Shown here piece by piece: positions 7,931 to 62,824 of a stretch of 64,000 nucleotides of DNA (position 1 is the stretch's first letter; each line of letters opens with the position of its first letter). The translations under genes and the position numbers were made by a program. The notes under the pieces are model-generated. The model made no database searches. It saw only the letters and a list, made by a program, of their open reading frames with translations, and was not told the DNA's origin. This DNA comes from Vitis vinifera. Its lineage: Eukaryota > Streptophyta > Magnoliopsida > Vitales > Vitaceae. Where the stretch lies: contig NC_081809.1 in the NCBI RefSeq assembly GCF_030704535.1, forward strand, positions 79,501 to 143,500, read 5' to 3'.

Positions 7931-10900
7931 AGGAAGGACCTCATTGAGCTTACACAAATGCCGTTGACACGCATGTTTTTTTTTTTTTTTTTAATGCAGT
8001 TGCCCCAACACTTAAAGGAATTCATGTATGTTATAGTTGGTAGGCATGCTTCAATTCTTTGAGAAGATGATGAGTTTTATGTCAGGGTTTTGGCAGTATG
8101 TTATTGCATAAGCAATTGGGGAAAGTTAGAGTAGGAAAATAAAAATGTGGATGGTAGTATGGGGCATGAGCTACTGGACACTTACACTCATTATTACCCA
8201 TATCAATTAACAGTGATCACTCAATTTGGAGATTCAACTATTTGCTACGGACTTTTTATCTGTTTGCCTTCCACAGCATTGCATTACAGTTTAATGTTAC
8301 AAAGGTATGAAATATATGCGATTCCCCATCTTCCCACCTCAAAGATGGTTGTGCAAGTCAAATGTTAATCATCTGGAATTGTGATATTCTCATTTCTTTG
8401 CTGATGACAGGGTTTGGAGCTATGAAGGGTTTTTTCTTTTTGGTTTTAATAATAATTGCTTGCAGCATAGAATTGGGATGTAAAGATCGAATTTATTAAA
8501 TTCATGCGAAGCGTAAAAGCGTGAGATGGGGAATGCAGAGTGCACCTTTGAGAGAAGGGACACTCTTAAACTCGGGACAGACTCTATTATTAATTTACTA
8601 TCCACCCTGTAATTAAATTAGGGTTTTTGGTTTTTTTTTATAACTAAATGATAAGAAAAAATAAAATTAGAATTTTTTGGTTTTTTTATAATTAAATGAA
8701 AATAAAAGGGGAATTGAAAGTTCAAAGTTTTAGACTTAAGTACTGAGTTGTTGGCGACTCCTGTTATTTTAATTATTTTAGGTGGCCTAAAATATATTAT
8801 TATTATTATTTTAATTATTTTATTCAAGAGTTTTGTGTAGTTATAGGCTTATAGCTCGCCTAAAATATATTTCAATTATTTTATATGGGAACGGTATATT
8901 ATACAAACCTTTTTTTGGTTTATTTTGGCGGAAATTCGAACTCTTTTTTTATAATAATCTAGAATGGTAATTTATATTTAGGACTTAGTAAAACTGTTTT
9001 TTTATTAGCCTGCTAATGAAAATATTGAAGAAAAAAATTAAATTGGTGAGAAATGTGTTTTTTTCCTAATTAAATTGGTAATTTGGTTTTTTTTTTTCCT
9101 TTTTTGCTTAATGTTAATTCCTCCTTTTAAAAAAAAATATTTTTCATTACCATTTTCCCTTTTTTTAATACTTTTTGAAAGTTTGGTTTTTTTATTTTTT
9201 TTAAAGAAAATGTGGAGAAAAAGGAGAGGAAAAATAAACTATTGATTTAAAATTAATAAAATAATATTTTATTCTACTTCAAACTCATTTTATTGATTTA
9301 AAATATAAGGTAAATAATTTATATGTAAGGTTATTTGGATATGGGTAATTTTACTAAGAAATAACTCAGTTTGAACATTTTTAACCTTCTTTATTTTGTC
9401 TGTTTTTAAAATTATCATATTCTCATTTAATTTATTGATTCCATCCTATAGCACATTTATCCCTGCAATTTTTTATTTTTTTAAATATTTTGCATCCATT
9501 TTACTTTTTTTTCTTCTCTTTTATATCTCAAGCAACTCATTCTTGTTTCCATTTCAATATATTTATTTGGATTCAGCTTTATTTAATACAAATTTAACAA
9601 ATGTTAATTTCTCACTAAGGATGTTCATTTGAATGGTATTGAATTAAGTTTGGTTAATAAAAATCTTAATTAAGGTTAAGTTCTTCGACATATTTGAACT
9701 ATAAGTTTTATTTACAAATAATTTAATTAAGATTAAGTTCTCATTTGAGTTACAAAGAATTTAATTATAATGACTTTAACTATGTCATTGTTAAAATTTA
9801 TTTAGAAATAACTTTATCCGGGTTAAAGTTTTCATTTTGCCTAAAAAAACTTAATTAAGATCAAGTTTTTAATGAAAATGTTCATTTGAAATAAAATATT
9901 GTATCTTATCTAAAATAAAATGTGAGGTTGCAAAACTCATTTTCACATTTTAGGAGTTTAAACAAATTTTATTTTATTTTTTAAAAAAACTAAAATCTCA
10001 CCACAAAAAGCTTCAACTAAAATTCCAAAAGAAAACACCCAAAAACCCCAATAAAAAATAATTGTAAAATATCTCAACTGTTGGGGTGCAACAATAGCAC
10101 TCTTAAGCCCTATAATAATTTACCAAAATAATGTTTCTCAAAAGGTATGATGTTGAATTTTATAAAAAAGTCTGATTTACTCTCACTAAATACCAATTAG
10201 TTTTTCATTGTGAGATGATTAAAGCTCAATTCAAAATCAACTAAAAACAAGATAAAAAAAAACCTTAGCTAATATCCCATAAAAATAAAAAATTCATAAT
10301 AGAATCTTACTACAAAAAACCTTAACCAAATTCCCAACATAAAACATCCATGAATAACCTCTAGAAATATTGTAAATGCTCCTTAAGGAAAAAAAAAATT
10401 GTATTGTTGAAGTTTAAATATAATTGCATATTAGTTTTCTTTATTGTTTTAATACTTAATATAAATAAAATATTATAAAATAAACAATTTAATATTTAAC
10501 ACTATTAAACATTAAAATTCTATTTTAGAATTAAGTAAAAAAATAAACATCATCTTAATTATTAACTAATCGAGTATCCTTAATAAAAAAATTTACTTTT
10601 GTGAAACTTGTAATAAATAAAATTTGATCCACATAAATCATTTAAATGAAAATAATGAATTGTTTGAGATAAAATAGTTATAAAACGTAGACAAATAATA
10701 TAAAGATAAATAAAATAAATACAAATAAAAGTATTCTAATGAATCATTTCCCAATAAAATTAAGGATTATTTAATTAAAAATAAATAAAAAATCTAAATT
10801 TAGAAATCCAAAACCTTATATATATATATTTAATCTTTTTGATAAAAAGGGTCTCATTATTTTTATTATAAATGTAATATTTTTTTTTAAGAAACTAAAT

Positions 10901-17200: not shown

Positions 17201-20200
17201 TTGGTCAAAAGCCTCAGGGTTGGAAGATGCTTGGAGTGGGGGGTTTTAAATTCCAGGGGGGCAGCTGGGGGGGTTTTGGTGTTTTGGGATAATAGGATAC
17301 TGCAATTAGAGGAGATGGAGGTGGGCAAATTTACTATTTCTTGTCGTTTTAAGAACTGAGAGGATGGTTTCTGTTGGTGTTTCTCAAGAGTTTATGGCCC
17401 CACGGTGAAAGTCGAGAGAGAAGAACTTTGGAGTGAGTTGGGGCCAATTAGAGGGATATGGAATGAACCTTGGTGCGTAGCAAGAGATTTCAACATGATC
17501 AGATTCCTCTCTGAGAGGAGCAGAGGGGGTCGATTGTCCCAAGAGATGAGGAGATTTTCAGAGGTGGTCGAGGAGCTAGATTTAAGGGACTTGCCTCTTC
17601 AAGGAGGGAGTTTCACGTGGTGTGGAGGTCTTAATAATCGATCAAAGTCAAGAATTGATCGATTCCTTATTTCTGAGGAGTGGGAATCTCATTTCTAGGG
17701 GGTGGTCCAAACTGTTTTGGCTAGGCCGATTTCTAATCATGCCCTGGTTCTTCTAGATGGGGGAGGAATGAGGAGAGGACCCACGCCTTTTAGATTTGAG
17801 AATATGTGGCTGAAAAGTGAGGGCTTTAAAGAGGTGCTAAAATAGTGGTGGGAGGGGATTCAAGTGAGCGGATCAACTAGTTTCATCTTGACTAAGAAAT
17901 TGAAGGCTTTAAAACCTTTGTTTTTTTTGATAAGCAAACACAATTCAATAAAAGAAAAGGCTGAATAGCCCCAACGTATACAGGGTGTATACAAGGCAAC
18001 AAAGGCCAACCAAGCAAAAAGCCAAAAAACAAACCACCCCTTAACTGGAGGCAAACCACTCCAGGAAATCTATAAGGGAAAGTGGCTCCTCTACCATATA
18101 CAATTTAGCCCAACCCCAGAAATTACATATAAAAGAATATTTAAACCTCTGAATTGCTAAACCCCCCCTCCCCTTAAAGGCTAATCTATTCCTTTCCAAA
18201 CCATCCAAAAAATGAATAACGGAATGGAATTTCAGAATTTTTTCCTTTTTTTCCCCACAAAAGCACCCCCCAACTATATAAAACCTCCTTTACAGTATTA
18301 GGGAACACCCACTTGACCCCAACTAAACCCAACACTAAGTCCCAAAGCACTCTAGCCACTGTACAATGAATAAGTAAATGATCCACACTTTCCGCTTCGC
18401 AAGCACACAAAAAACACCGATTAGGAAGCTGCCAGTCTCTCTTTTGGAGCCTATCAAGAGTCAAAATCTTTTCCCAAGTCGCTTCCCACGCAAAAAACAT
18501 GATTTTAGTTGGGACTCTTCCCACCCAAATCTTGTTTTTCGGAAAGTTGACCTCCATAGGCCTATCCAGCCAGCTATACGCTTCCTTCACTTTAAACTGC
18601 CCACTTCCCCCGCCCTTCCAAGAAATCGAGTCATCCTCCCAAGTTAACCTAAGTCCTCTCAACGCTTGGAGCAACTTGCCTACCATCTCCACCTCCTAGT
18701 CATTAAAATCCCTTATAAAACTCAAATTCCAGCCCCCTTCCCCTGCATTCTGGTCCCACAAGTCTTCAACTGTTGCATTTCTATTGGCTGCCAAAATGTA
18801 GAGATGCGGAAACCTTTGGGACAGCGCTGCCTCCTCGCACCACACATCAGTCCAGAATTTGATTTTGTTACCTTTCCCCACAATAAACACCATTTTGTCC
18901 CAGCACCATCCAACTTCCTTTAAGATCTCCTTCCACACCTCCACCCCACACGCACCCACCGCCTTTTTGGTCTTCCAACCATAATCCTCTTGACCAAACT
19001 TAGCCATCAGCACTTGCTTCCAAAGGGCCTCCTTATCCGAAGCGAATCTCCAAGTCCATTTGCCAAGTAATGCTTTATTCATAATGATAAACTTCCTAAT
19101 TCCCAGCCCCCCATTCTCCTTATCCCCACACACCACTTCCCATTTAACCATATGAACTTTCCTCTCCATGTGACCCCCCCCCCCCCCCCAAAAAAAAAGT
19201 CTCTTTGCAATTTTTCTAACCTTCTTGCCATAGAACAGGGCATACGAAATAAAGACATCTGATACACTGGCATGCTTACCATAGAGCTTTTGATTAGAGT
19301 GATTCTCCCACCCTTTGAAATATATTGGCTCTTCCAAAGGGCGAGCCTCCTTCTCATTTTCTTTTCTACCCCATCCCACCCATAGGCAGCATTATTAGGC
19401 ACCCCCAAAGGTAGCTCCAAATACACAGTTGGCAGCTGCCCCACCCTACACCCTAACTCCACAGCCAGCTCCTCTATCCTTTGCACCTCCCCTACTGGAA
19501 TAATCTCGCTTTTAGCCAAATTAATTCTTAACCTGGACGCGGCTTCAAACCAGAACAAAATCCAATTTAAATTCGTTAAATACTCCTTCTTCGCCTCATA
19601 AAAGACAATGGTGTCATCTGCAAAAAGCAGATGAGCAATGTGGACAGCTCGCCCTCTATCGCGTTGAATTTTGCACCCTGAGATGAAACCCCCCTCCATA
19701 GCCCTTCTGATAAGAATACTCAACACTTCCATCCCCATGACAAAAAGGTAAGGGGACAGGGGGTCCCCTTGTCGCAGCCCTTTTGAACTCGAAAAGAAAC
19801 CAGTTGGCGTTCTGTTCACCATAATTGAAAATTTGGCTGTGGAAATACACCACCACATCCACCTCAGCCACTTAGCGCCAAATCCCATTTTTTCCATGAC
19901 CTTCAAGAGGAATTGCCAGTTGATACTGTCATAGGCCTTCTCTATATCTAGCTTGCAGATAACCCCCTTATCCCCCTTCTTATTCCAGAAGTCTATCGCT
20001 TCATTTGCTATTAGAGAGGCGTCAAGAATCTGCCTACCCGTAACAAACGTGTTCTGATCGTGGGATACTACTTTACCTATTACTTTCTTAAGCCTATTGG
20101 CCAACACCTTTGCCATCAGCTTATAGAGACCCCCCAATAGGCTGATGGGTCTGAAGTCTCCTAAATCCTCAGCCCCTCCTTTCTTAGGAATCAGCACCAG

Positions 20201-23200
20201 AAACGTGTTGTTAATACTCTTAAGGAACGTATTCTGGACATGGAGCTCCTTAAACATCTCCATTATTTCCTCCTTGACGAAATCCCAATAGCATTGCCAA
20301 AAGAAAACAGAGAACCCGTCAAGGCCTGGGGCTTTATCCCCATTCATTTCCATTAGGGCTGACTGGACTTCACCCTCCGTGAAGGGAGCCTCCAAAATCT
20401 CTGCCTCTTGCATGCTAATTTGATTAAAAGGAAGGCTTCCAATGTCCGCCTTCCACCCCGAATTTTCTGAAAATTGCTGCTGAAAAGCATTTGCTACCCT
20501 TTCTCTAATTTCACGCTCCTCTGTTAGTCTAATCCCATTGATTTTAATTCTGTCCATGTGATTAATTCTCCTATGGGCAGAAGCCATTCGGTGGAAGTAT
20601 CCCGTGTTCCTATCACCTGCCTTCAACCAAAGTTCCCTAGACACCTGCCTCCAATGAGTTTCTTCCAGATCTACCCACTTGGCATAATCCTCCTTGGCTT
20701 CCTTCTTACAAGCTAATTCCTCCATTGCCAAGCTTCTTTCATCCTCCACTCTGTCCCAAAACTCCACTTGCTGGATCGCAGCCTCCTTGTTACTTTCTAG
20801 ATTACCAAACTTCTCCCTATTCCAAACTTTAAGTTTCTGCTTCAGTTCCTTCAATTTTGCCGACAATCTAAAACTGGCGCTGCCCCTGACCTCTATTCCC
20901 CACCACCAACTCCGGATTAAATCCTTAAACCCCTCGACTTTGAACCACATGTTTTCGAATCTGAAGGGGGCAAGCCCTCTCCTCCAACTACCCCCCTCAA
21001 GTAGTACTGGAAAGTGATTCGAGGTCGGCTTGGGAAGCCTGCGCTGGCTCACCCTACTAAACTGATCAAGCCAGCAAGGGGACACCAAAAATCTATCTAG
21101 ACGAGCCTTTGACAGACTATTCAAACCCCCACTCCACGTGAAGGCACCCCCTTGCAATTGAAGGTCCACAAGACCTAGCTCATCTACAACTTCCGCAAAC
21201 CTCCTCATGGCTGAAGATACTCTTCCTTGCCTACTTCTCTCACCTTGAGCCAGGGTAATGTTGAAATCACCACCTAGACACCAAGGCCCCTCCCAAATTC
21301 CTCTGATCGCCCCTACTTCTTCCCACTACCACTCCCTTTCAATTCTAATGAACGGGCCATATACCCCCGTAAAAGCCCAAGTCACCCCATTCTCCATAGT
21401 TCTGAATCTGCAGGATAAAGAGAACTGACCCACCTCCCACTCCAACGGCTCCAGTGCTCTTTTATCCCAACAAATTAGGATACCCCCAGCCGAGCTACAC
21501 GCATTCAGGGCTTTCCACTCTAAAAACCTACCCGTCCCTAAACTTCTCACCACCCTGTCAGTCATATCCTGAATTTTTGTCTCTTGGATACAGAAAAGGT
21601 CCACCTTCTACTTCTTAATGACCGATTTAATAACCTTCCTTTTCAAGCTTTCGTTCATCCCTCTCACATTCCAGCTCAACAGTTTGAAATTCATTAATCA
21701 ACCTCCGTCTGCACCCCTTTGCCCTGAATAGGGCCTTTCTTTTTGCCATCCCCCTCACAATTCACTGAGCATTCCAACCTCTTTAGCTCCCTTTCAAACC
21801 TCGATTTTTCCAATAAATCCTTTACTATGAATCTTTTCCCTTCTTTTCCTGATTTTGACTAAAAAATTTAAAATATCCTTTTCCAGACCATCAGTCGAAA
21901 AGCCCAGAAATTGGCTGAACCTTGCTAGACTACTTTCTTGCCAATCCAGGTCCCCTTCCCCTCTTTCTTCTTGAATCTCAAACTGTGAGGGCCCCCCCTC
22001 CTGTTCCCTTGCCGTTGCTAGAGGGCCTTTGAATTCAACCATGTCCCAGCAAGCACTACCACTCGCCCTAGAGCCAGCTGCACCTTGCCTTTGTAATTCC
22101 CTGCCATTCTGGCAGACCTCCCTTAATACCCTAGAATGATCAAAGAACTCCCCCTCTGGAGTCCGATCAAGAGAAAATAGAGAAGAAAGAGACGGATTCC
22201 CCGATTCCCAGAAAACCCCTAGAGAAGATAAAGCCTCATACCTCATAGCTTCATCCTGTAGAACACTGTCTACCATCGCCTTGAGGGGGCTGACCTTCTG
22301 AGCAATCTCAGTTTCCTTCTCTCTCGCTCTTAGGAATTCAAGCTCAATGTTAGCTTCACCAAGCAGTCCAGAGAGAACTAAGGCCTCCATCGGGCCTGAT
22401 TTAGGTTGCCTCACCTTCGGGCCTGTTCTCTTCTTACTTGGAGGCCCACCTAGCTGTGCCCCATTCTCCTGCATCCAACTCGAGGACGGCCCGCTACACT
22501 TGCTTTGATTCGAAAGCCCAAATCGCGGCCCAAGGTCCTCCTCCAACACTTTCTCCTTGCCTTTTGGGCCTTTCGATCTGCCTGTCGGCCCAAGCCCACC
22601 ACTTCTAACTTCTTTTGACCCTACTAATCCAAATGTTGAAAGCAGGCTAGGCCCCCCGTCCCTCCTCATACCTAGATTGGGTCCATTAAGCCCATCCAAT
22701 GTCAACCCATCTTCCGCCCCATCCTTTGACGCCCGAAGCATCGACCCGAATTGGATCCGGCCCACCGACGAGACCCTACCCATCCCGTCCGCCTGCACTT
22801 CCGTCACATCGTCTGACCGTAGTAGTGCCTCGAGACCTGCACTGCCCCACTCCTCCACTCGCCGGCCAGCGCGTGCGCCTCCGTCATCCCTTTCCTCACG
22901 AACTGTTGCTCCCCGACAGTCCTCCGTCTTCTGTCTGATCATCGGCTTTACTTCCCACCAGAGCGGAAGGTGATATGTGGTCTCTTCCACTCCGATTTCT
23001 ATCGAGCTTGGCAACTCGCCTCTCTTTGTCTTCACTAGAATCCTCGCCCACCGAAGGTTTTCCATTTTCTCCGTCGAGGCATCCATGGAAACAAAGCCCC
23101 CACATTCATCTCCCACCCTTCGCAAAATGCTAGGAACCTAGAGCGACAACGGCAAACCTTTAATCCTCACCCAAAGTTCCTCTTCTATATCCCCTTCTTC

Positions 23201-26200
23201 CAAACACCCATAGCTCGGACTCCACCGCTCCAGATCAACGTGAATCCCCCCCACCAACCTTTCCCCGACATTGAAGATTTTCCTGGCTTCTGCCGCCTTT
23301 TCAAATTCCAATAGGGCTTGACCCTCATCCATCCAGGCCAACCCTAACTTCCCTTTTAACTCCCAAGCATTCTCCATCCGCCATCCCATCCTCGCCAAAT
23401 CCCTTCCTTCTGCTGCCTTAGGGTTCCATTTTCCCACCAAGCATTGTCCCAACCGATCCACATTTCTGCGGATGTCCTCTTCCTTAAATTCCATCCTGAA
23501 CCAGATGCTATTCCTATTCCCCATTTCAGATGACACTCTTTCGGGGATTGGCTCGCCATTGTTTTCCTCCCTTTTATCAGTCCTTTTAAACAAGTTCCGC
23601 ACCACATCCGCCATAACTGGCCATCCTTCTCTACCCCCTCTGCCTCTCGGGATGCAGATACTGAACCTTTTCTCCTCCGCATCTACCACTCCTAGCCTGA
23701 TAAAGCTTCCTGCCTTGTTAACTTCACGCACCATGGAATACCTTCTCCAGTTTTCCTTCCATCCCTTCTCCCATTTGTCGTTTTTCCCATCCTTAATACA
23801 CTGTTCAAGCCCTTCCAGAAACATCCCGACACTTGCCGGCCCCAATCTCACCCATGAGGACACACCTTTTTTACTTTCTACAATGAATATTAGGGTTTTA
23901 CCTCTTCTCTTCTCCACCTCTACTTCAAAGGTTTTCGATTTCACCCCGAACTTCTGCCTTTTCCGATTTGATTCCACCTCGTCATCGTCACCCTTCCCCA
24001 CGCTCTCACCCTCTTTCTCTCTCATCGAGTTACACGATCAAAGCAACTATCATAAACTTTAATTATGGCTTTAAAACCTTTGTTAAGAAACTGGAATAAA
24101 GAGGTGTTTGGACAGATTGACTGCGAGAAGCAGAAAACATGGATTTTAATAGATTATTGGGACAAGGAATAAAGGGGTCGATCTCTGTCAATGGAAGAAG
24201 AAGAGACTAGGAAGGAGGCAAGGGAGTTATATAAGAAGTGGGTTTTATTGGAAGAAGTCTCATGGAGGCAAAAGTCTAGGGAAATCTGGCTGAAAAAAGG
24301 GGATAGAAACACCAAGTTTTTTTCATAAAATGACAAATGCTCACAGGAGGAGGAATCAGCTGAATAGAATAAAGGTGAATGAGAGGTATTTAACTGAGGA
24401 AAGTGAAATCAAAGAGGAGATTGACAGAAATTTTCAAGAGTTGTTGACAGATCCAGGCGAATGGAAGCCTAGTATAGACGGGTTAATTTTTGAAAGGCTG
24501 GAAGCAGGGGATGTGGAGAGGTTGGAGAAGCCCTTTTCAGAGGAGGAGGTTTTTGAGGCGTTGGAATATTGTTGTGGAGAAAAAGTACCAGGGCCAGATG
24601 GCTTCTCAATGGCCTTTTGGCAATTTGCGTGGGAAGGAGGAAGTTATGAATTTGTTTAGATAGTTTCATGAGACGGGGAGATTTGTAAGAAGCTTGAATG
24701 CAACTTTCTTAGTTTTGATTCCTAAGAAAGGGGGGTTGAGGACTTGAAGGACTTTAGGCCAATAAATTTGGTGGGAGGGCTTTACAAATGGTTGGCTAAC
24801 AGGTTAAAAAGAGTGTTAGCCAAAGTGATATCATTGTCTCAAAATGCTTTTGTGGAGGGGTGGCAAATTATGGACACAATTCTGATCGCAAATGAGGCAA
24901 TAGATTCAATTCTGAAAAGTAATAATGGGGCAATTTTATGCAAATTAGATATCGAGAAAGCCTATGATCATGTGGATTGGTCATTTCTTTTAGCGGTGTT
25001 GGGGAAAATGGGATTTGGAGGAAGGTGGTGTAGTTGGATAAAATGGTGTTTATCCATTGTCAGTTTTTCGGTCTTGGTGAATGGCAGTCCAACGGTTTTT
25101 TTCCAGGGCTCAAAGGGCTTAAGGCAAGGAGACCCCCTTTCGCCTTATCTATTCGTAATAGTGATGGAGGCTTTCAGCTGTTTGATGAAAAGAACACTTG
25201 CTGGAGGTTTTTTGATGCCTTGTATTGTGCGGGGAAGAAGGGTGAAGGGGTCCAGATTACACATTTATTGTTTGCTGATGACACGTTGGTGTTTTGTGAA
25301 GCTAAAGAGGATCAGTTGACTCACTTGTGTTGGCTGTTAATGTGGTTTGAGGCTTTGTCGGGGTTAAAAGTGAATATGGAAAAAAGTGAATTGATCCTAG
25401 TTGGTAGAGTTGAAAATGTGAGAGAGTTGGCGGATGAATATGGATATAAAGTGGGAAATTTGCCATCCACCTATTTAGGAATGCCTTTAGGTGCCCCTTT
25501 CAAATCTATCGGTGTATGGGATGGAATAGAGGAAATATTCAGAAAGAGATTGACTATGTGGAAGTGTCAATACATCTCAAAAGGAGGAAGGATTACTTTA
25601 ATTCGGAGTACTCTGTCCAACCTTCCGATCTATTTTATGTCCATCTTCCATTTACCTAGGGCGGTTAGGATGAGGTTGGAAAAAATACAAAGGGATTTTC
25701 TGTGGGGAGGTGGCTCTCTTGAGCAAAAACCTCACTTAGTAAGGTGGCCGATTGTGTGTGAAGACAAAACTAAAGGAGGCTTGGGGGTTAAGAGCCTTGG
25801 TTTGTTCAATAAGGCTCTCTTGGGCAAATGGTCTTGGCGTTTTGCTAACGAAAAAAAGGCCCTTTGGAATCAGGTGATTAGAAGGAAGTATGGGGAGGAA
25901 ATTGGAGGATGGAGATCTTGTGAGATAAGGGAGGCTTACAGAGTTGGTTTGTGGAAAACTATAAATAAGGTGGGACAACTTGTAACCCCTTTTTTTGGCT
26001 TTGAGGTGGGGGATGATAAGAATGTGAGGTTTTAGAAAGATAAGTGGTGTAGTACCAGCCCCTTACGTGAGGCTTTCCCTTCACTTTTTGCATTAGCAAC
26101 GTCAAAAGAGGCTTGGGTAAATGAAGTTTGGACAGCCAAGGGGGATAGGAGGGGAAGTTGGACTCCTACTTTCAATAGGCTGTTTAATGATTGAGAGGTG

Positions 26201-36021: not shown

Positions 36022-37014
36022 AACTCAATTGGATCTAGTTGAAGAATGCAATACACAATCCTCATTAATTCATGATATGATATATTCTTCTTCATTGTAA
36101 TGTCTTTATCTTCACTTCCTTTAAATGGTATGTGTTATTATCTTGTATCCAATTCCCTTTATACAAAAGCATTATTCTTACTTCATCAATGACCGCAAAA
36201 ATAAAATTTTCAAACTATCATATTAAGTATGAAATAGTATAACATATGATATACTTTTATTAGGTTTCAACTATAGACTATGTAATAAATCTTAAAACAT
36301 ATATTTATATGTTTATTAAATAACTCACTACATAATAATATGTCAACAATTCAATCTCAATTTTCAATACAGTTCTATAAAAATGGACTTTTGCTTTGAA
36401 TACCAACACATAAACTTAACTTATGTTAAGTTAAACCTAACAAATAGTAAAATTTATTGTTCAATGCAACAATGCAACACTTCCCATAAATCAAAGAACC
36501 AAATGAACAATATATAACTACAATGAGTATTAATCATAGAAGCAATACTAAAACCATAATAATTTTTCACGCATGTGATTTATTGCTTACCATCATTTCC
36601 CCTTGCCATATGGATAAATCTTTTTAACTTCTTTTCAACGAACTTTTCACTTTTTCGTAACTAATAATGGAGTCTCTGTTTTATACATATACAGGTGAAG
36701 TGATATTTTGAATTTTTAGGAAACAAAAAGAAATAAAATGAAAATATAAAAAATAAATTGTTGGTTGCTTAAATTTTTCTTTTTTTCATTTTTCTGTGAC
36801 AAAGAATGAAAAATAAATGAAACAATGGTGAGAACTTAGGTTTGTTCTTTGCAAGAAAACAAAGAAAACAAACAAGTAGTGACCAAATAAAAAAAATAAA
36901 AACCTAATCTATTATAAAAATAGAGGGAAGGAGAAGTTATGTAATAAGGAAAAATGAGGGGTATTTTTGTCTCCATCGGTCAACTTTTATGCTTTTTCAG
37001 GGGTGGGTTATATT

Positions 37015-37886
37015 GAGCTTTGACCCAAAATAGTGTGTTTTAAAAAAAAATTCCAAAAAATAAAGTTGTTTTCAAAATAATGCCCAATCTAATGTGTCTG
37101 TGCCACATAAGCTGCCACGTCATAAAACCGTAGTTGGTGACTACGGTTTTATTTTTATAAAGTGGTTAGAAACCGTAGTTACCAACCACGGTTTTAACTT
37201 TAAGTTTAAAGCCGTAGTTGGTGACTACGGCTTTAACTTTTTTTTAAAATGGTCAAAGCCGTAGTCACCAACTGTGGTTTTAACTTTATATATATTTATA
37301 TATAACTTTAATTTTTTTAATAAAAATATTATATTATTTTGATTTTAAATATACTTATTTCATTATTTTAAAAATAATAATATATGAAATTAAATAATTG
37401 ATATTTTTAATTTGATATAAAAATATATTTTTAAATTTTATTAAAACGCACTATATTTAATATAAATATAATTAATTAATTAAAATAAAATATAATAAAT
37501 TATATTTATTTAAAATAAATAAATTATAAATGCCTATTTAGAAAAATAAAAAAATAATATAAATTATTATATTAATTAATAATTTTTTATATATTATATA
37601 TAAGTGGTATATAATACCTCACACACACACACATAAGTTTAATTTAAGTTTAAAATTTATCACATTTTTATTTAAATATATAAATAAATTTTATTAAAAC
37701 AATTGACACTATATTTAATATAAATATAATTATTTAATTAAAATTAAATATAAATAAAATATAATAAATTATGTTTACTTAAAATAAATAAATTATAAAT
37801 GCCTATTTGGAGAAAAAAATAATATAAATTATTATATTAATTAATAATTTTTTTATATATTATATGTAAGTAGTATATAATATCAG

Positions 37887-37926
<40 letters not shown>

Positions 37927-38565
37927 TATGAACTTAAATTAAAATATGATAAATTTTAAACTTAATTGAACTTATATACATGTGACATTATATACCACTT
38001 ACATAGTATATAAAAAATTATTAATTAATATAATAATTTATATTATTTGTTTTTTAATAGGCTTTCATAATTTATTATATTTTATTTATATTTAAATATA
38101 ATTAACTAAATATATTTATATTAAATATAGAGTATATTATTTTAATAAAATTTTAAAATATATTTATATCAAATTAAAAATATTAATTATTTAATTTCAT
38201 ATATTATTATTATTAAAATAATGAAATAAGTATATTTAAAATCAAAATAATATAATATTTTTATTAAAAAAATTAAAGTTATATATAAATATATAAAGTT
38301 AAAACCGCAGTTGGTGACTACGGCTTTGACCATTTTAAAAAAAAGTCAAAGCCGTAGTCACCAATTACGGCTTTAAACTTAAAGTTAAAACCGTGGTTGA
38401 TAACTACGGTTTCTAACCACTTTAGAAAAACGAAACCGTAGTCACCAACTACGGTTTTATGACGTGGCAGCTTATGGCACAGACGCATTAGATCGGACAT
38501 TATTTTGAAAACAACTTTATTTTTTGGATTTTTTTTTAAAAACGCACTATTTTGGGTCAAAGCTC
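37015..38565. mobile_element. Foldback (long-TIR) Mutator-like element with 9-bp target duplication
   Basis: This 1551-bp element is almost all inverted repeat. The ends are GAGCTTTGACCCAAAATAGT and its mirror, and pairing continues inward for about 640 bp on each side. The flanks read GGTTATATT at both 37006-37014 and 38566-38574, a perfect 9-bp duplication, the MULE hallmark. It has no coding capacity. Each arm carries four smaller palindromes near its end (see 37124-37282). The left half holds an extra direct duplication of about 260 bp (around 37460-37630 and 37720-37893). Very AT-rich core. Confidence 0.9.
37124..37282. repeat. Four small palindromes in the left arm of the foldback element
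   Basis: Units at 37124-37150, about 37170-37196, 37208-37234 and 37255-37282 are variants of an 11-base arm (AAAACCGTAGT), a 5-base loop (TGGTG) and the mirrored arm (ACTACGGTTTT). The outer base pairs alternate between AAACC and AAGCC types. A matching set is in the right arm (38300-38460), giving eight units in all. Confidence 0.9.
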
Positions 38566-38615
38566 GGTTATATTTGCAAATAGGGGGTATTTTGACCTAT
38601 ATAATCAAATAACCC

Positions 38616-38954
38616 AAAAATAAAACAGAGTTTAGTGATGGTCCGTAAGACGTTAGGACATGCAGGCGCTGGTTGTGCCAAATTACTACTCGAAGTGTTT
38701 GTTTGAGAATAGAAAGAAAAGAGGAACTTCAGAACGGAACAATCATGGGAAGGGCGCTGTATCGCGATTTTGTGTGCCGAAAATTCATGCAATGGCTCCA
38801 CTGAATCAGTAGCCACCGAGTTCGAACCAATTGCTTGAGTGAGTCCGTCATTCTCTCTCCAATCCCTAGAAATTAAAGCTCGTCGCCTCAGACAACATTC
38901 TTTTTTATCCCCTCAGCCCTATTTCCCCGTCAAACCCAGAACATCGAACAAGAC
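38616..38954. promoter_or_regulatory. Putative UXS promoter and 5' leader
   Basis: Only about 340 bp separate the MULE relic's right end from the UXS start codon. The promoter must therefore lie here or extend into the transposon DNA. A TC-rich leader (TTCTCTCTCCAATCCCTAG) lies at about 38851-38869. No TATA box was identified with confidence. Confidence 0.45.
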
Positions 38955-41900
38955 ATGGGTGGTGGTGAGCTGTTTCATAGAGGCCATAGAACCCAGACTC
39001 TCCCTCTCCTCCGCTCCTCACACACTCGGTATCTTTCTCTCTATCTGACCAAGCTAACAAACCCCATTCGCTACGTTCTTCGCGAACAGCGAATCCTCTT
39101 CTTCTTCATCGGAATCTCCATCTCTACCCTCATCTTGAACTCCTTTCCACCCTCCCATCACCAGATCCCTCCCCTACTTCTCCGGTCCGATTCCACTCAT
39201 TCCACTCATCCCGTTTCCTACTATCACCATGCAGCAGGTGGAAAGGTGCTTCTAGGCCTCAAAAGGAAGGCCCTGAGAATCGTGGTCACCGGCGGTGCCG
39301 GGTTCGTCGGAAGCCACCTCGTCGACCGTCTCATCGCCCGCGGCGACAGCGTCATTGTCGTCGATAACTTCTTCACGGGTCGGAAAGAGAACCTCATGCA
39401 CCATTTCGGGAACCCCATGTTTGAGCTCATTCGGCACGACGTCGTTGAGCCCATCCTCTTGGAGGTCGATCAGATCTACCACCTCGCTTGCCCCGCATCT
39501 CCTGTTTATTACAAGTTCAACCCCGTCAAGACCATCATATCCTTTCTCAAAACCCATCGTTTTGCTCCGTACAGATCAATGCGCTTTACCATTTCGTTTC
39601 TACTTTTTCTGTTTTTGTTTCTATAAAACACGAAAGACCACTTGTGGTTTCGGAAGCCATTTTGTTGCCGTTCCTTGATTTAAAATCTGGGGTTAACAAG
39701 ACCAATGTGGTAGGGACACTCAACATGCTTGGGCTGGCAAAGAGGGTGGGTGCGCGGTTCTTGCTAACGAGCACCAGCGAGGTGTACGGTGATCCTCTGC
39801 AACACCCCCAGGTGGAGACATACTGGGGCAACGTCAACCCAATTGGTGTTCGGAGCTGCTACGATGAGGGGAAGCGCACAGCGGAGACATTGACCATGGC
39901 TTATCACAGAGGAGCTGGGATCGAGGTCCTTCTTTCTTTCTATCTTACAGTCATAATGAAGCAATTTTATGTATCTTTGAAATGGCGTTTCAGGTGAGAA
40001 TTGCTCGAATTTTCAACACTTATGGGCCGCGCATGTGTATCGATGATGGTCGTGTTGTCAGCAATTTTGTTGCTCAGGCACTGAGAAAGGAGCCATTGAC
40101 TGTTTACGGCGATGGGAAGCAAACCAGGAGTTTCCAATACGTTTCTGACCTGGTAAAACTTTTTTTCGCTTTTTGGCAATGTGAAAAATTGAATCATCTT
40201 TATCTTCAATTCTTGTTCATGTTATTTTTTTTTTCTCCTCTGTGGTTCCTCTTGCTGTGGTGGTGATCATTTTGTATAGTTTTATATTGCCCCTATCTTA
40301 TTTGATTTTGTTGTAGGTACTCGACATAAATATCAATAATTTAACTTTTACTGTTCTGTTTTGTGGCTTGGAAAATTTGATCTGGAAATTAAAATGACAG
40401 AAAATGACTTCTGTTCGGTGTCTGGGAGAAGTTAAACCCATAAAATAGTTTTGTTTTGTTTTTTTTTCCAGATTTTGTTATGAAAATTGGGTGTTTTAGA
40501 ACAATTTTGAGATGTTTTCACTTGTTTTAGAAGAATACTTTGGGTGTATAAAGTGGTGGAACTAGCAAATGGCTTGAGGGGGCAGCATCTAGCTATTCAT
40601 CTCAGGTTCAAAAAATGAACAAAAAGTATTTGTTGTGTATTGGTAGCAAAGGAATTCTTTGATATATATATTTTTTTCAAATTTCAGGGGGTATATGCCC
40701 CTCGTTGGCATGCATTGACTCTGCCCTTATATAGTACCTTTATGGAAAATAAGGTGACAAAACTATTTTCCATATTTGAATTCTCAAAAATTTTGTTTCA
40801 GAGAATAATTGAGAACTTCTTTTAAGAACTATTCTCAAGAATTGTTTTTTGAGAACTATTTTTTGAAAATGTTGGAAACATGCCCATAGTGTCTCATTTA
40901 TTATGGCTTGGCCCTTATGTGATGGATATTGATCCACAGATTTTTTTTTTCCTCTATATTTTCAAAGAAAGAGAATTAGCTGATAATCTACTTCAAGAAA
41001 GGCTTCTTTGTTTAATTTCTTAAGCAACTTTCTAAGAATTAATATTATAATTAATGATGTGTGGCCTCTTCCAACCCTTTTTAGTAGTCAATTGTATCTC
41101 CTGATTTTGATTGAAATCAAGGGTCCCTAGGCCATTGATTCAAAACTTCTTAGGCTGCTAACAACTTTTGGTAATTTTTTCTATGGTCTAGTAGAACCCA
41201 TGACATGAAAATGATCTCTTTAGTAAATATTTTGTTTGTATCGTGGAAATTCCAATGTCTTCTGGTAAGCAAGCAGTGTGAACTGGTCTAGATATCCCCT
41301 GTTTAAAGCCATGCTGGATTGTCGGTTATAATATGCTATATGGTAGTTTTGTGTTTAAACGTGGAGATAATACTTTAAGGAGGTTTCAATTTGGTCTCTT
41401 TCTGTTTTCCATATCTTTTTATCACTTAATGCAATTATTTCATGGAGAGGTACCTAGAAGGTTTCTCCTTTGAGAGCTCTATATCATCACGGCTACTGAA
41501 TTTAGATGTGCCTTAATTTTTGCGGGTACATTTGTAGTAGTCCTGAGTCTCACACCATTGCAAGGCATTCTTGTATTTCCTCATTAGAAACTTACCAGAA
41601 ATCACTTGATCATCCTATATTTTCTTTTCATTCTTGTGAGTCATTCAAGGACCAGGAACCAAAAATGGGAAATGAGTAGAGGAAAAAGCAGGTGAAAAAA
41701 TTTTCATAGATACATGATACATCCTGAATATGTGTGGTCCACTAGTCTTCATTGAACTTAGAGAAAATTGTCTTGAAAGTGGTACAAATATATAAGAGTT
41801 TAACCACAATCTGTGCTTGCACAACTCATTCTCTCTCAATGTTTCAGTTTTAAACGATTTGATCGAATGGGCAAGTGGGTTACAGGGATGTAATGCAACC

Positions 41901-60652: not shown

Positions 60653-62824
60653 TCAGCTGGAAGATGCGATGAGGTGCTCTTCTTGCGACCCATCTTCTAT
60701 GGAAAATTTGTTGGATGGTTTTGAGTTTCTGTAAATTGCATACAGCACTAACTGGGCAGTTCCAAGCACAAGCCCCGTCCCGTTCGGTACCTAAATTAAA
60801 CCAGAGTAGTAATATATCACAAGTGTGAAATATATTTACTTTTCAATGTCCTTTTAGAAAAATTGAAAGATGATCACATGTTGTTAGGAAAATCATACGT
60901 ATTGCAGTACTACTCTTCAAAGTCATAATTTTCGATGGAAGATTTGCAATATCTAAGTATTGCTCATCGTGGGTGTACGCGCATATATTGTTTTATTATT
61001 TTCGAGTCAATGTCCATTATGATGGCAGGGAGCGTACTTATCAATAGGGCTTATATAACGTACACGGTATACCCCTGGGCCCTGGGCCCTGGGCATGACT
61101 AGGGCACTATTTTTCTATAAATTAAATTGAAACAAATCAGAACGACTAAAATTAACATGGTTTATGGTGAAAGCTATGTTAATTTTGAGGAAATTAAACG
61201 ATGAAGTGATCATTATTGAGGTGGGTGGTGGTGGTGGTGATGGTGATCATGATCAAATTAATGTAACAAGTAATAACTTACAGCGAGGAAGTAATCCCGG
61301 ACAAGCACAGCGTAGATGGTCCAAATCCCTCCATTCAAGAAAAGGAAAAATGAGAGAAAGAATGGCATGAACTCCACGCTCTTGGTTGTCACCACTGTTT
61401 TCTGAACATGATTTGGACAAGCATATATATTTAGCATTAATCCCTCACCATATACAAGCTGCATCTGCTACAATCCTATTCATCATCTTTTGTCCAAATC
61501 TGAGTAAATAAAGAAATTTATTTTGAATCAAAGGTAAGATGCATGCTGAGGGTTTTGGATTGACAAAAGGCCATCCATTGCAAGTGAGCAGATGTAACTT
61601 TGGCTTCAACCCCCTCTCTCCCTCATTTCCCTATGCAACTACTGTATTAAAGTACATTAATGGCATGTGGCCGCCCTCCCTCCACGTCCGAAAACACTAT
61701 TCTATTACTATAGATTGCGGACCACACAAATCTGGATAGGTTATCTCCTGGCATATACCAAGAGCCACTTCCAAATCCCTACAACCATCCTTACACCAAG
61801 TTGAAGTGTCCCACTGCACAGTAACCTGCCTTGTTGGAATGAAGAGGAGGATGAAAGTCTACGAGTAAATAAAAATTATAATGACAAACTGAGACTACTT
61901 TTCAGAGGAAATGATTCATGTTAGCTAATTATTTGTTAAGTTTTGGTTGAAGACTAAGGTTTCGTTTTAATTGGATCAGAAGATCATCCAGTTCAATGCT
62001 CCCAAATCAAAACTGGATCACCCCATCGAAATCACTGTGTCGTTAATTCCCAATTACCAAAGAAAAATCTCAGTGACTGCAAATATAGATGATGAGCAAG
62101 CAGTAATTCTCACCATGGCAGCTAGAGGCGAGCCGTACATTACAATGTTGAGGCCGGAACATATGAACCCTAGTGCATCAATCCGCGTATCTCCTTGCAA
62201 TGCCAAGCGAGTCACTAGAATTGCTGCAGCTAGAAACCCCACATCCAAGAGGCTGACCAGAGCGACGGTTTTGGCCTGTAATTCGTAACAAATCAGCCAT
62301 GGAAGAAGGCGGTAAGCCACAAAGTGTGATGGTGAAAATTCAGATGAAGTTACCCTCATTTTTGCCGGTGCGTATATGAGGAATAAGGTAACATAGGCAG
62401 CTTCAACAACCACACCAAAACCATTAACAGTAGCTACAAGTATTTCCCCGGGCTTGATAATTCCATAGTAAGTCCACAAGGATGAGTTCAACAAAGTGCA
62501 AACGTAGGGAAGGCTCTCAAAGTCCTGGGTCGATCGGTGCTTTACTATTCGCCAAAACGTTCCACTGCAATTTCATCATAAGATAGGAGTTGATCATCAA
62601 CTGATGTTTAATGTTTAGTACAGAACGAGAAGAATCAAGCTGTGTCAAAGCATGAAAGAACTTACATGGGAGCTAGAAACACCAGCACTGAGATGATGTT
62701 ACCTGCAACAAGGAAAACCCTATGATCAGTTCCCTATCCATTTCTTTGCATGAATGCATTGCTGTGTACAGATCTACAACGGTCCCTCACCTATTACTCC
62801 AGCGAAGAAACTCAAGCTTTCCAT
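60653..62824 (-). CDS. SWEET17: SWEET sugar transporter, SWEET16/17-like
   Basis: Exons, in transcription order: 62791-62824, 62666-62702, 62354-62564, 62114-62275, 61282-61401, 60653-60790. They give 233 aa with all phases matching. Two MtN3/saliva repeats (seven membrane helices) are visible. The four hinge prolines are present (P23, P43, P144, P161), as are the pocket Trp residues (SLWTYYG W54; GIWTIYA W175) and Asn residues (N50, N137, N171). SWEETs are bidirectional uniporters for sugars. The short tail and the LAPIGTFWRIVKHRSTQDFESLPY sequence fit clade IV (SWEET16/17), which act at the tonoplast, mainly on fructose and glucose. The clade call is from remembered sequence; a tree would settle SWEET16 versus SWEET17. 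Confidence 0.95.

Follow-up and report, generated by a model that had tools for sequence, protein, structure and literature searches.

A foldback MULE 5' of a UXS-like gene in Vitis vinifera and its relation to one end of its parent elements

The origins of foldback transposons are usually hard to trace. In Medicago truncatula, MuTAnT elements are described as modular foldback MULE derivatives, with AutoMuTAnT as the related element encoding a MULE transposase; 90% of MuTAnT copies are 200–300 bp long, the target is TA microsatellites, and the transposase is Jittery-like (PMC4486113). In maize, Mu killer carries an inverted duplication of one MuDR end, from which both its TIRs come; it is a single locus with transposase-gene sequence that silences MuDR and for which a long hairpin has been proposed (PMC3440606). 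The multiple-TIR MULEs of tomato, Arabidopsis, rice, and maize are amplified non-autonomous elements with duplicated terminal sequence, mostly as tandem duplicates at an end (PMC3310237). The FARE elements of Arabidopsis are, by their description, foldbacks with long palindromic ends that are now classed as MULEs. Tm1 of the root-knot nematode is a Mutator/Foldback element with a 9-bp target site duplication (TSD), a transposase with the MULE domain, and composite TIRs with a repeated motif, in this case ~14-bp tandem repeats (PMC3169594). In grapevine itself, the Mutavine families are MULEs with the 9-bp TSD reported for MULEs of this plant; by description, Mutavine-2 (11 kb, 180-bp TIR) and Mutavine-12 (10 kb, 416–441-bp TIR) are similar in size to the parent elements considered below, and the word foldback is absent from the main text of that paper (PMC2528002).

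Here we describe an element at positions 37015–38565 of a 64,000-nucleotide stretch of the V. vinifera genome (RefSeq GCF_030704535.1, NC_081809.1, positions 79,501–143,500 of the forward strand), referred to as the window. A non-autonomous foldback MULE, it is nothing unusual in kind; its history is instructive and can be tested. The element shares with MuTAnT the foldback structure and a related element encoding a MULE transposase. Unlike MuTAnT, its family ranges in length from 0.6 to 2.7 kb, inserts into varied targets, and has arms that can be traced to one parent end with several junctions; the TSDs and flanks of 33 copies were varied rather than TA microsatellites. As in Mu killer, an inverted duplication of one element end was found, in all eight foldbacks tested; unlike Mu killer, the duplicated part is the noncoding 3' end and the copies are many and dispersed. 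Compared with the multiple-TIR MULEs, the duplicated termini stand head-to-head and form the whole element, and compared with Tm1, derivation from one end is a feature of the family described here. Since a parent and its derivatives are present in one assembly with sharp junctions, foldback formation, a possible transposition advantage of having one end twice, and possible silencing of the parent become directly testable. We consider it very likely that the window element is a non-autonomous foldback MULE derived from one end of its parent, with an origin by template switching and mobilization in trans as the inferred parts of this history.

Table 1. Features of the foldback element and of the adjacent gene; positions are those of the window.
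Feature	Position	Strand	Details
TSD, left copy	37006–37014		9 bp, GGTTATATT
Long arm	37015–38005	+	inverted copy of the terminal ~1,060 bp at the parent 3' end; 991 bp, corresponding to E2 3' positions 1–1060
Left TIR	37015–37240	+	226 bp, common to both parent ends
Mini-palindrome 1	37128–37146	+	exact motif
Mini-palindrome 2	37173–37191	-	2 mismatches
Mini-palindrome 3	37212–37230	+	exact motif
Mini-palindrome 4	37259–37277	-	2 mismatches
Internal tandem duplication	37421–37958		37421–37693 vs 37674–37958, 80%
Apex marker	37957–37986	+	30 bp, common to class D copies, also present in E1 and E2
Short arm	38007–38565	-	second copy, in opposite orientation, of the terminal ~585 bp at the parent 3' end; 559 bp
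Mini-palindrome 5	38305–38323	+	1 mismatch
Right TIR	38342–38565	-	224 bp, common to both parent ends
Mini-palindrome 6	38352–38370	-	1 mismatch
Mini-palindrome 7	38391–38409	+	3 mismatches
Mini-palindrome 8	38436–38454	-	exact motif
TSD, right copy	38566–38574		9 bp, GGTTATATT, perfect match to the left copy
Candidate TATA-like TATATAAT	38598–38605	+	in the element–gene interval, read by eye
First coding frame of the UXS-like gene	38955–39623	+	epimerase domain; overruns the exon into the intron

The element is 1,551 bp long and forms almost one long hairpin. When one half is aligned to the other, the two arms hold 97% of its length, and the terminal 21 bp are the same at both ends (21/21 bases). 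The outer arms, 37015–37436 and 38140–38565, agree at 400 of 416 aligned sites (96.2% identity, three gap events), and the wider arms, 37015–37705 and 37905–38565, are 93.6% identical with twelve gap events. The original prediction, made from the letters of the window, had described nearly the whole element as one inverted repeat with perfect 9-bp flanking duplications, and both statements hold. The predicted RNA fold of the plus strand has an energy of -767.7 kcal/mol, compared with -230.5 on average (sd 9.7) across 12 dinucleotide shuffles. Unequal stretches of the parent gave rise to the two arms (Table 1), and the tandem duplication within the element has a counterpart in the parent 3' region, as seen in the self-comparison of the parent element E3.

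A search of positions 36500–39200 against Rfam yielded 27 matches up to E 1, none of which reached its gathering score; a reading as a miRNA or another catalogued RNA gene was rejected, as matches such as mir-548 and mir-2944 were all below this score. A text search of the literature with six exact strings taken from the element, with Repbase and supplements outside its scope, gave no match. Matches of viral contigs to CCGTAGTNNNNNACTACGG, found at 52 loci with one exact place each, were read as chance occurrences in microbial DNA.

Eight 19-mers of the element fit the motif CCGTAGTTGGTGACTACGG with at most three mismatches, while none was found in 100 dinucleotide shuffles. The predicted set of eight mini-palindromes, four per arm, was thus recovered, but exact copies of the motif as it had been quoted number only three; two more have one mismatch, two have two, and one has three. 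Within each arm, their direction alternates as +,-,+,-, and, as read from the spacings, a palindrome, a linker, and an inverted palindrome make up a unit of ~85 bp that occurs twice per arm. At least five matches at the same threshold are present in each of 32 other both-ended loci of the family, flanks included. The parent elements carry them as well: each 5' end has three (four parents of four), and the 3' ends of E1, E2, E3, and E4 have three, four, four, and five, respectively, again with at most three mismatches. In the 5' TIR of E4 (L105:313–331), the centre of the first mini-palindrome runs opposite to that of the other ends.

As the mini-palindromes belong to the parent TIRs, binding of the transposase to them is plausible, and they may be regarded as candidate binding sites. 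For the suggestion that the series is a transposase-binding pattern, the presence of palindromes in the TIRs at both parent ends is in favor, while excess conservation is missing: between the 5' and 3' consensus sequences, 4 of 75 palindrome columns differ, compared with 9 of 158 in the remaining TIR (p = 1). Of the accompanying suggestion of a self-amplifying pattern, what can be retained is that foldbacks with these palindromes did multiply. Short inverted motifs arrayed next to the termini also typify En/Spm (CACTA) transposons, and their occurrence here in both orientations could be taken to mean that the window element is one of these. CACTA elements, however, have CACTA ends and a 3-bp TSD, whereas the ends here are GAGCTTTGACCC, the TSDs are 9–10 bp long, and the parents encode a MULE transposase, which leaves this identity practically no chance; we excluded it by the ends, TSD length, and transposase.

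When the window element was compared with its own genome, at least 159 matches were obtained (40 of 726 candidates scored); since a foldback matches on both strands, the number of matches is not the number of copies. The 21-mer of the TIR, with at most three mismatches, occurs at 259 sites in the genome (135 + 124), versus 12 (2 + 10) for the reversed control. Thirty-eight loci were fetched, and both ends were present in 32 of them; together with the window element, these form a set of 33 copies. The loci outside this set are L063 and L074, with one end unrecognised, L089, where the element continues (refetched as L107), and L082, L086, and L097, which are single ends of ~11-kb elements.

Among the 33 copies, TSDs are exact over 9 bp in 23, exact over 10 bp in three (L076, L084, and L095), matched at 8/9 positions in two, and at 7/9 in one. 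The TSD test found none in four copies (L065, L066, L067, and L077), of which L077 has 7 bp in common as judged by eye. L069 and L071, both among the 23, resemble a duplicated segment and should be counted once, as they share both the TSD and the flanks. Five further foldbacks, L107–L111, have exact TSDs in four cases and a 7/9 match in one; L107 carries ~1 kb of additional sequence in its interior. The original prediction had named a lack of further copies with these ends and 9-bp duplications as counting against it; such copies are abundant, with exact duplications of 9 or 10 bp in 26 of 33. Both lengths lie within the range of about 9–11 bp for TSDs in the MULE superfamily.

The inverted repeats occupy 0.54–0.99 of the length of the 33 copies (0.97 in the window element). 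Of these long TIRs, ~230 bp are common with the parents, and the arms are much longer. The arms do not seem to have been homogenised within elements: in just 5 of 66 arms was the partner in the same copy the nearest relative, and the arms of the window element are closest to the opposite-side arms of L061 and L062. A related non-foldback element, L112:601–2062, with GAGTTTTGACCC ends, 94-bp inverted ends, and a TSD matched at 8/9 positions, has part of the end of the foldback family in common. Separately, TIR-like sites with the same sequence at G000:C5:2059654, 2167544, and 2275420 are spaced by even steps of ~107.9 kb, which suggests tandem duplication of a ~108-kb segment.

Four parent elements, E1–E4, were recognised among the TIR matches listed as pairs of the same TIR 10.9–11.9 kb apart (10,865–11,906 bp). 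Their TSDs are exact in two and matched at 8/9 positions in the other two (E2 and E4). E3 contains an uninterrupted transposase frame of 876 codons with the MULE domain PF10551 (E 1.2e-18), the MuDR DNA-binding domain PF03108 (2.4e-09), and the SWIM domain PF04434 (2.3e-05). These parents, together with the copies sharing ends and TSDs, bear out the classification as a foldback MULE. A transposase search gave at least 57 matches (52 of 1,240 candidates scored); among the matches scored, E3 has the sole uninterrupted full-length frame above 74% identity, the others being interrupted or partial, and relatives at 73–74% identity include uninterrupted frames. On the 3' side of the transposase, E3 has frames with the plant mobile domain (E 2.3e-52 for one of them); MULEs are known to capture plant mobile domains (PMC5418596).

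All 33 foldbacks are covered over 99–100% of their length by sequence of E1–E4. In eight foldbacks, the halves were compared with the two parent ends separately: all 16 match the parent 3' end over about 630–1,040 bp, and the same 16 match the 5' end over 224–235 bp only, that is, approximately the TIR. When compared with E1, some halves of class A (see below) match from position ~193 onward only. Since the halves match the 3' end far past the TIR and the 5' end within it, the tested eight are two copies of one terminus. The arms of the window element are the parent 3' end taken twice in opposite orientation, with the 5' end and all genes lost.

Inversion points were mapped on the parent 3' end for 38 foldbacks. 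Class D comprises 19 of 39 sequences by the apex marker, including the window element, and in most members its arms correspond to about 1,050–1,060 bp and about 585–606 bp of the 3' end. Since the marker also occurs in E1 and E2, the class rests on the breakpoint near E1 position 9903 and not on the marker alone; this breakpoint is seen in the copies aligned to E1, namely five (the long arm ends at 9903 in L062, L107, L108, L109, and L110) and the window element (9914 in its alignment). To class A belong 11 of the 39 sequences according to its marker, and also L085 and L087, which were assigned from their spacers; about 860–880 bp of the 3' end are present in both arms, with deletions in some copies, and the spacer, up to ~160 bp long, is a copy of part of the plant-mobile-domain region of the parent. 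Class B (L081 and L088) has 1,636 and 558 bp of the 3' end. L084 (1,049/1,033) and L111 (447/197) have inversion points of their own, and L072 and L096 were left without a class. Arm identity reaches 99.9% in L075 and 99.8% in L092, both of class A with exact TSDs, and is 88–95% in class D.

As the inversion junctions differ, one-ended foldbacks arose repeatedly: three or more classes, each with at least two copies, formed independently before spreading. A copy of the 3' type was the starting point in looking for foldbacks, so only a search with the 5' subterminal sequence speaks to foldbacks of the 5' type. With 1,200 bp of the parent 5' subterminal region as the query, at least 68 matches were obtained, 40 of 88 candidates being scored; inspection of the scored matches by eye showed no opposite-strand pair within 40 kb.

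The inversions happened several times at different points and left derivatives that have one terminus twice and lack the 5' end and the genes; we propose that they arose by template switching while a parent copy was being repaired or replicated. Template switching is suggested by short overlaps at the inversion junctions and by the spacer copied from the parent interior, and as the source of the inversions it is suggestive only. At three junctions, with coordinates taken from the start of the BLAST overlap and with class D and L084 outside the test, microhomologies of 6, 5, and 3 bp were found; the corresponding chance tails are 0.014, 0.032, and 0.138, and the 3-bp overlap is ordinary. The foldbacks might instead have resulted from recombination between two elements inserted head-to-head. 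Members of the family can indeed sit close to each other, as indicated by a second palindrome array in L079. However, the class A spacer is a fragment of the parent's own interior with short overlaps at both joints, and every arm maps to the terminal ~1.64 kb at one and the same end of the parent, which makes this origin quite unlikely.

The products spread, most of them with target duplications of 9–10 bp, and the shared ends suggest that the parent transposase may move them in trans by binding to the TIRs, with the mini-palindromes as its candidate binding sites. The foldbacks may even spread better than the parent, having two 3' ends with mostly four or five palindromes each, while the parent has one 3' end and one 5' end with three. 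The palindrome counts at the parent ends (three at the 5' ends, three to five at the 3' ends), the 38 both-ended foldbacks against four intact-ended parents in the fetched set, and the independent formation of three or more classes that each have at least two copies agree with such an advantage, and a similar argument has been made for tandem-TIR MULEs (PMC3310237). Yet there are many reasons why small elements are usually more numerous than large ones, the palindromes lack excess conservation, a search seeded with a foldback favors foldbacks, and the 3' end of E1 scores three palindromes, the same as the 5' ends. We treat a transposition advantage as conceivable but doubtful.

Alternatively, the window element might act mainly as a silencing locus, where a transcript running through it would form a hairpin RNA and be processed into siRNAs, leading to methylation of the parent TIR promoters in trans and of the UXS promoter in cis. 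The predicted fold is very stable, and the first ~225 bp of the arm are similar to the parent 5' TIRs, at 85–90% identity in the window element and up to 93% in L084. Mu killer, as an inverted duplication of a MuDR end, has been proposed to act in this way, although the same paper disputes the model of read-through transcripts from flanking genes; short antisense transcripts are proposed there, with the long hairpin as a possible contributor (PMC3440606). In grapevine callus, TE-directed 24-nt siRNAs and CHH methylation have been described for other elements (PMC8454084).

The pattern of decay could also speak for silencing. In 15 older copies, with positions shared by descent counted once per copy, transitions affect 7.2% of CG, 9.2% of CHG, and 5.3% of CHH sites, compared with 0.49% at A/T sites; the copies were split into 15 older and 18 younger ones by hand from arm relationships, and copies without an end were excluded. 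This C-to-T excess in all three contexts would fit a methylated element. Against this, the transposase region of the four parent copies has the same bias (1.7, 2.3, and 0.7% for CG, CHG, and CHH versus 0.05%), so the decay says nothing specific to hairpins, and methylation decay specific to the hairpin was not supported once this coding-region control was considered. The C-to-T decay in all contexts is consistent with methylated DNA in general, the comparison region being itself transposon sequence. On these grounds, we consider a role as a silencing locus rather unlikely. A broader scheme would join these ideas: one end of this MULE would be a hotspot that folds back on itself time and again during repair, aided by the palindromes, and the resulting double-3' hairpins would be both better transposition substrates and silencers of the parent, yielding a self-limiting cycle. 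We find this combination improbable.

The gap between the end of the element and the ATG at 38955 is 389 bp, in agreement with the predicted distance of about 390 bp upstream of the UXS start; the frame opened by this ATG encodes an epimerase/dehydratase domain. We take this gene to be UXS from our own reading of the frame and from the original prediction. The copy near UXS is an ordinary insertion of the foldback family. An influence on UXS is possible, and the copy, lying 389 bp 5' of the UXS-like start codon, provides one natural promoter insertion for typing.

Elsewhere in the window, positions 17905–24084 contain a minus-strand LINE with a reverse transcriptase domain, flanked by LINE-like frames on the plus strand. 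An exact 18-bp repeat, GGCTTTAAAACCTTTGTT, at 17905–17922 and 24067–24084 looks like the TSD of the minus-strand LINE. Finally, a minus-strand frame at 62054–62572 encodes a SWEET/MtN3 sugar transporter domain.
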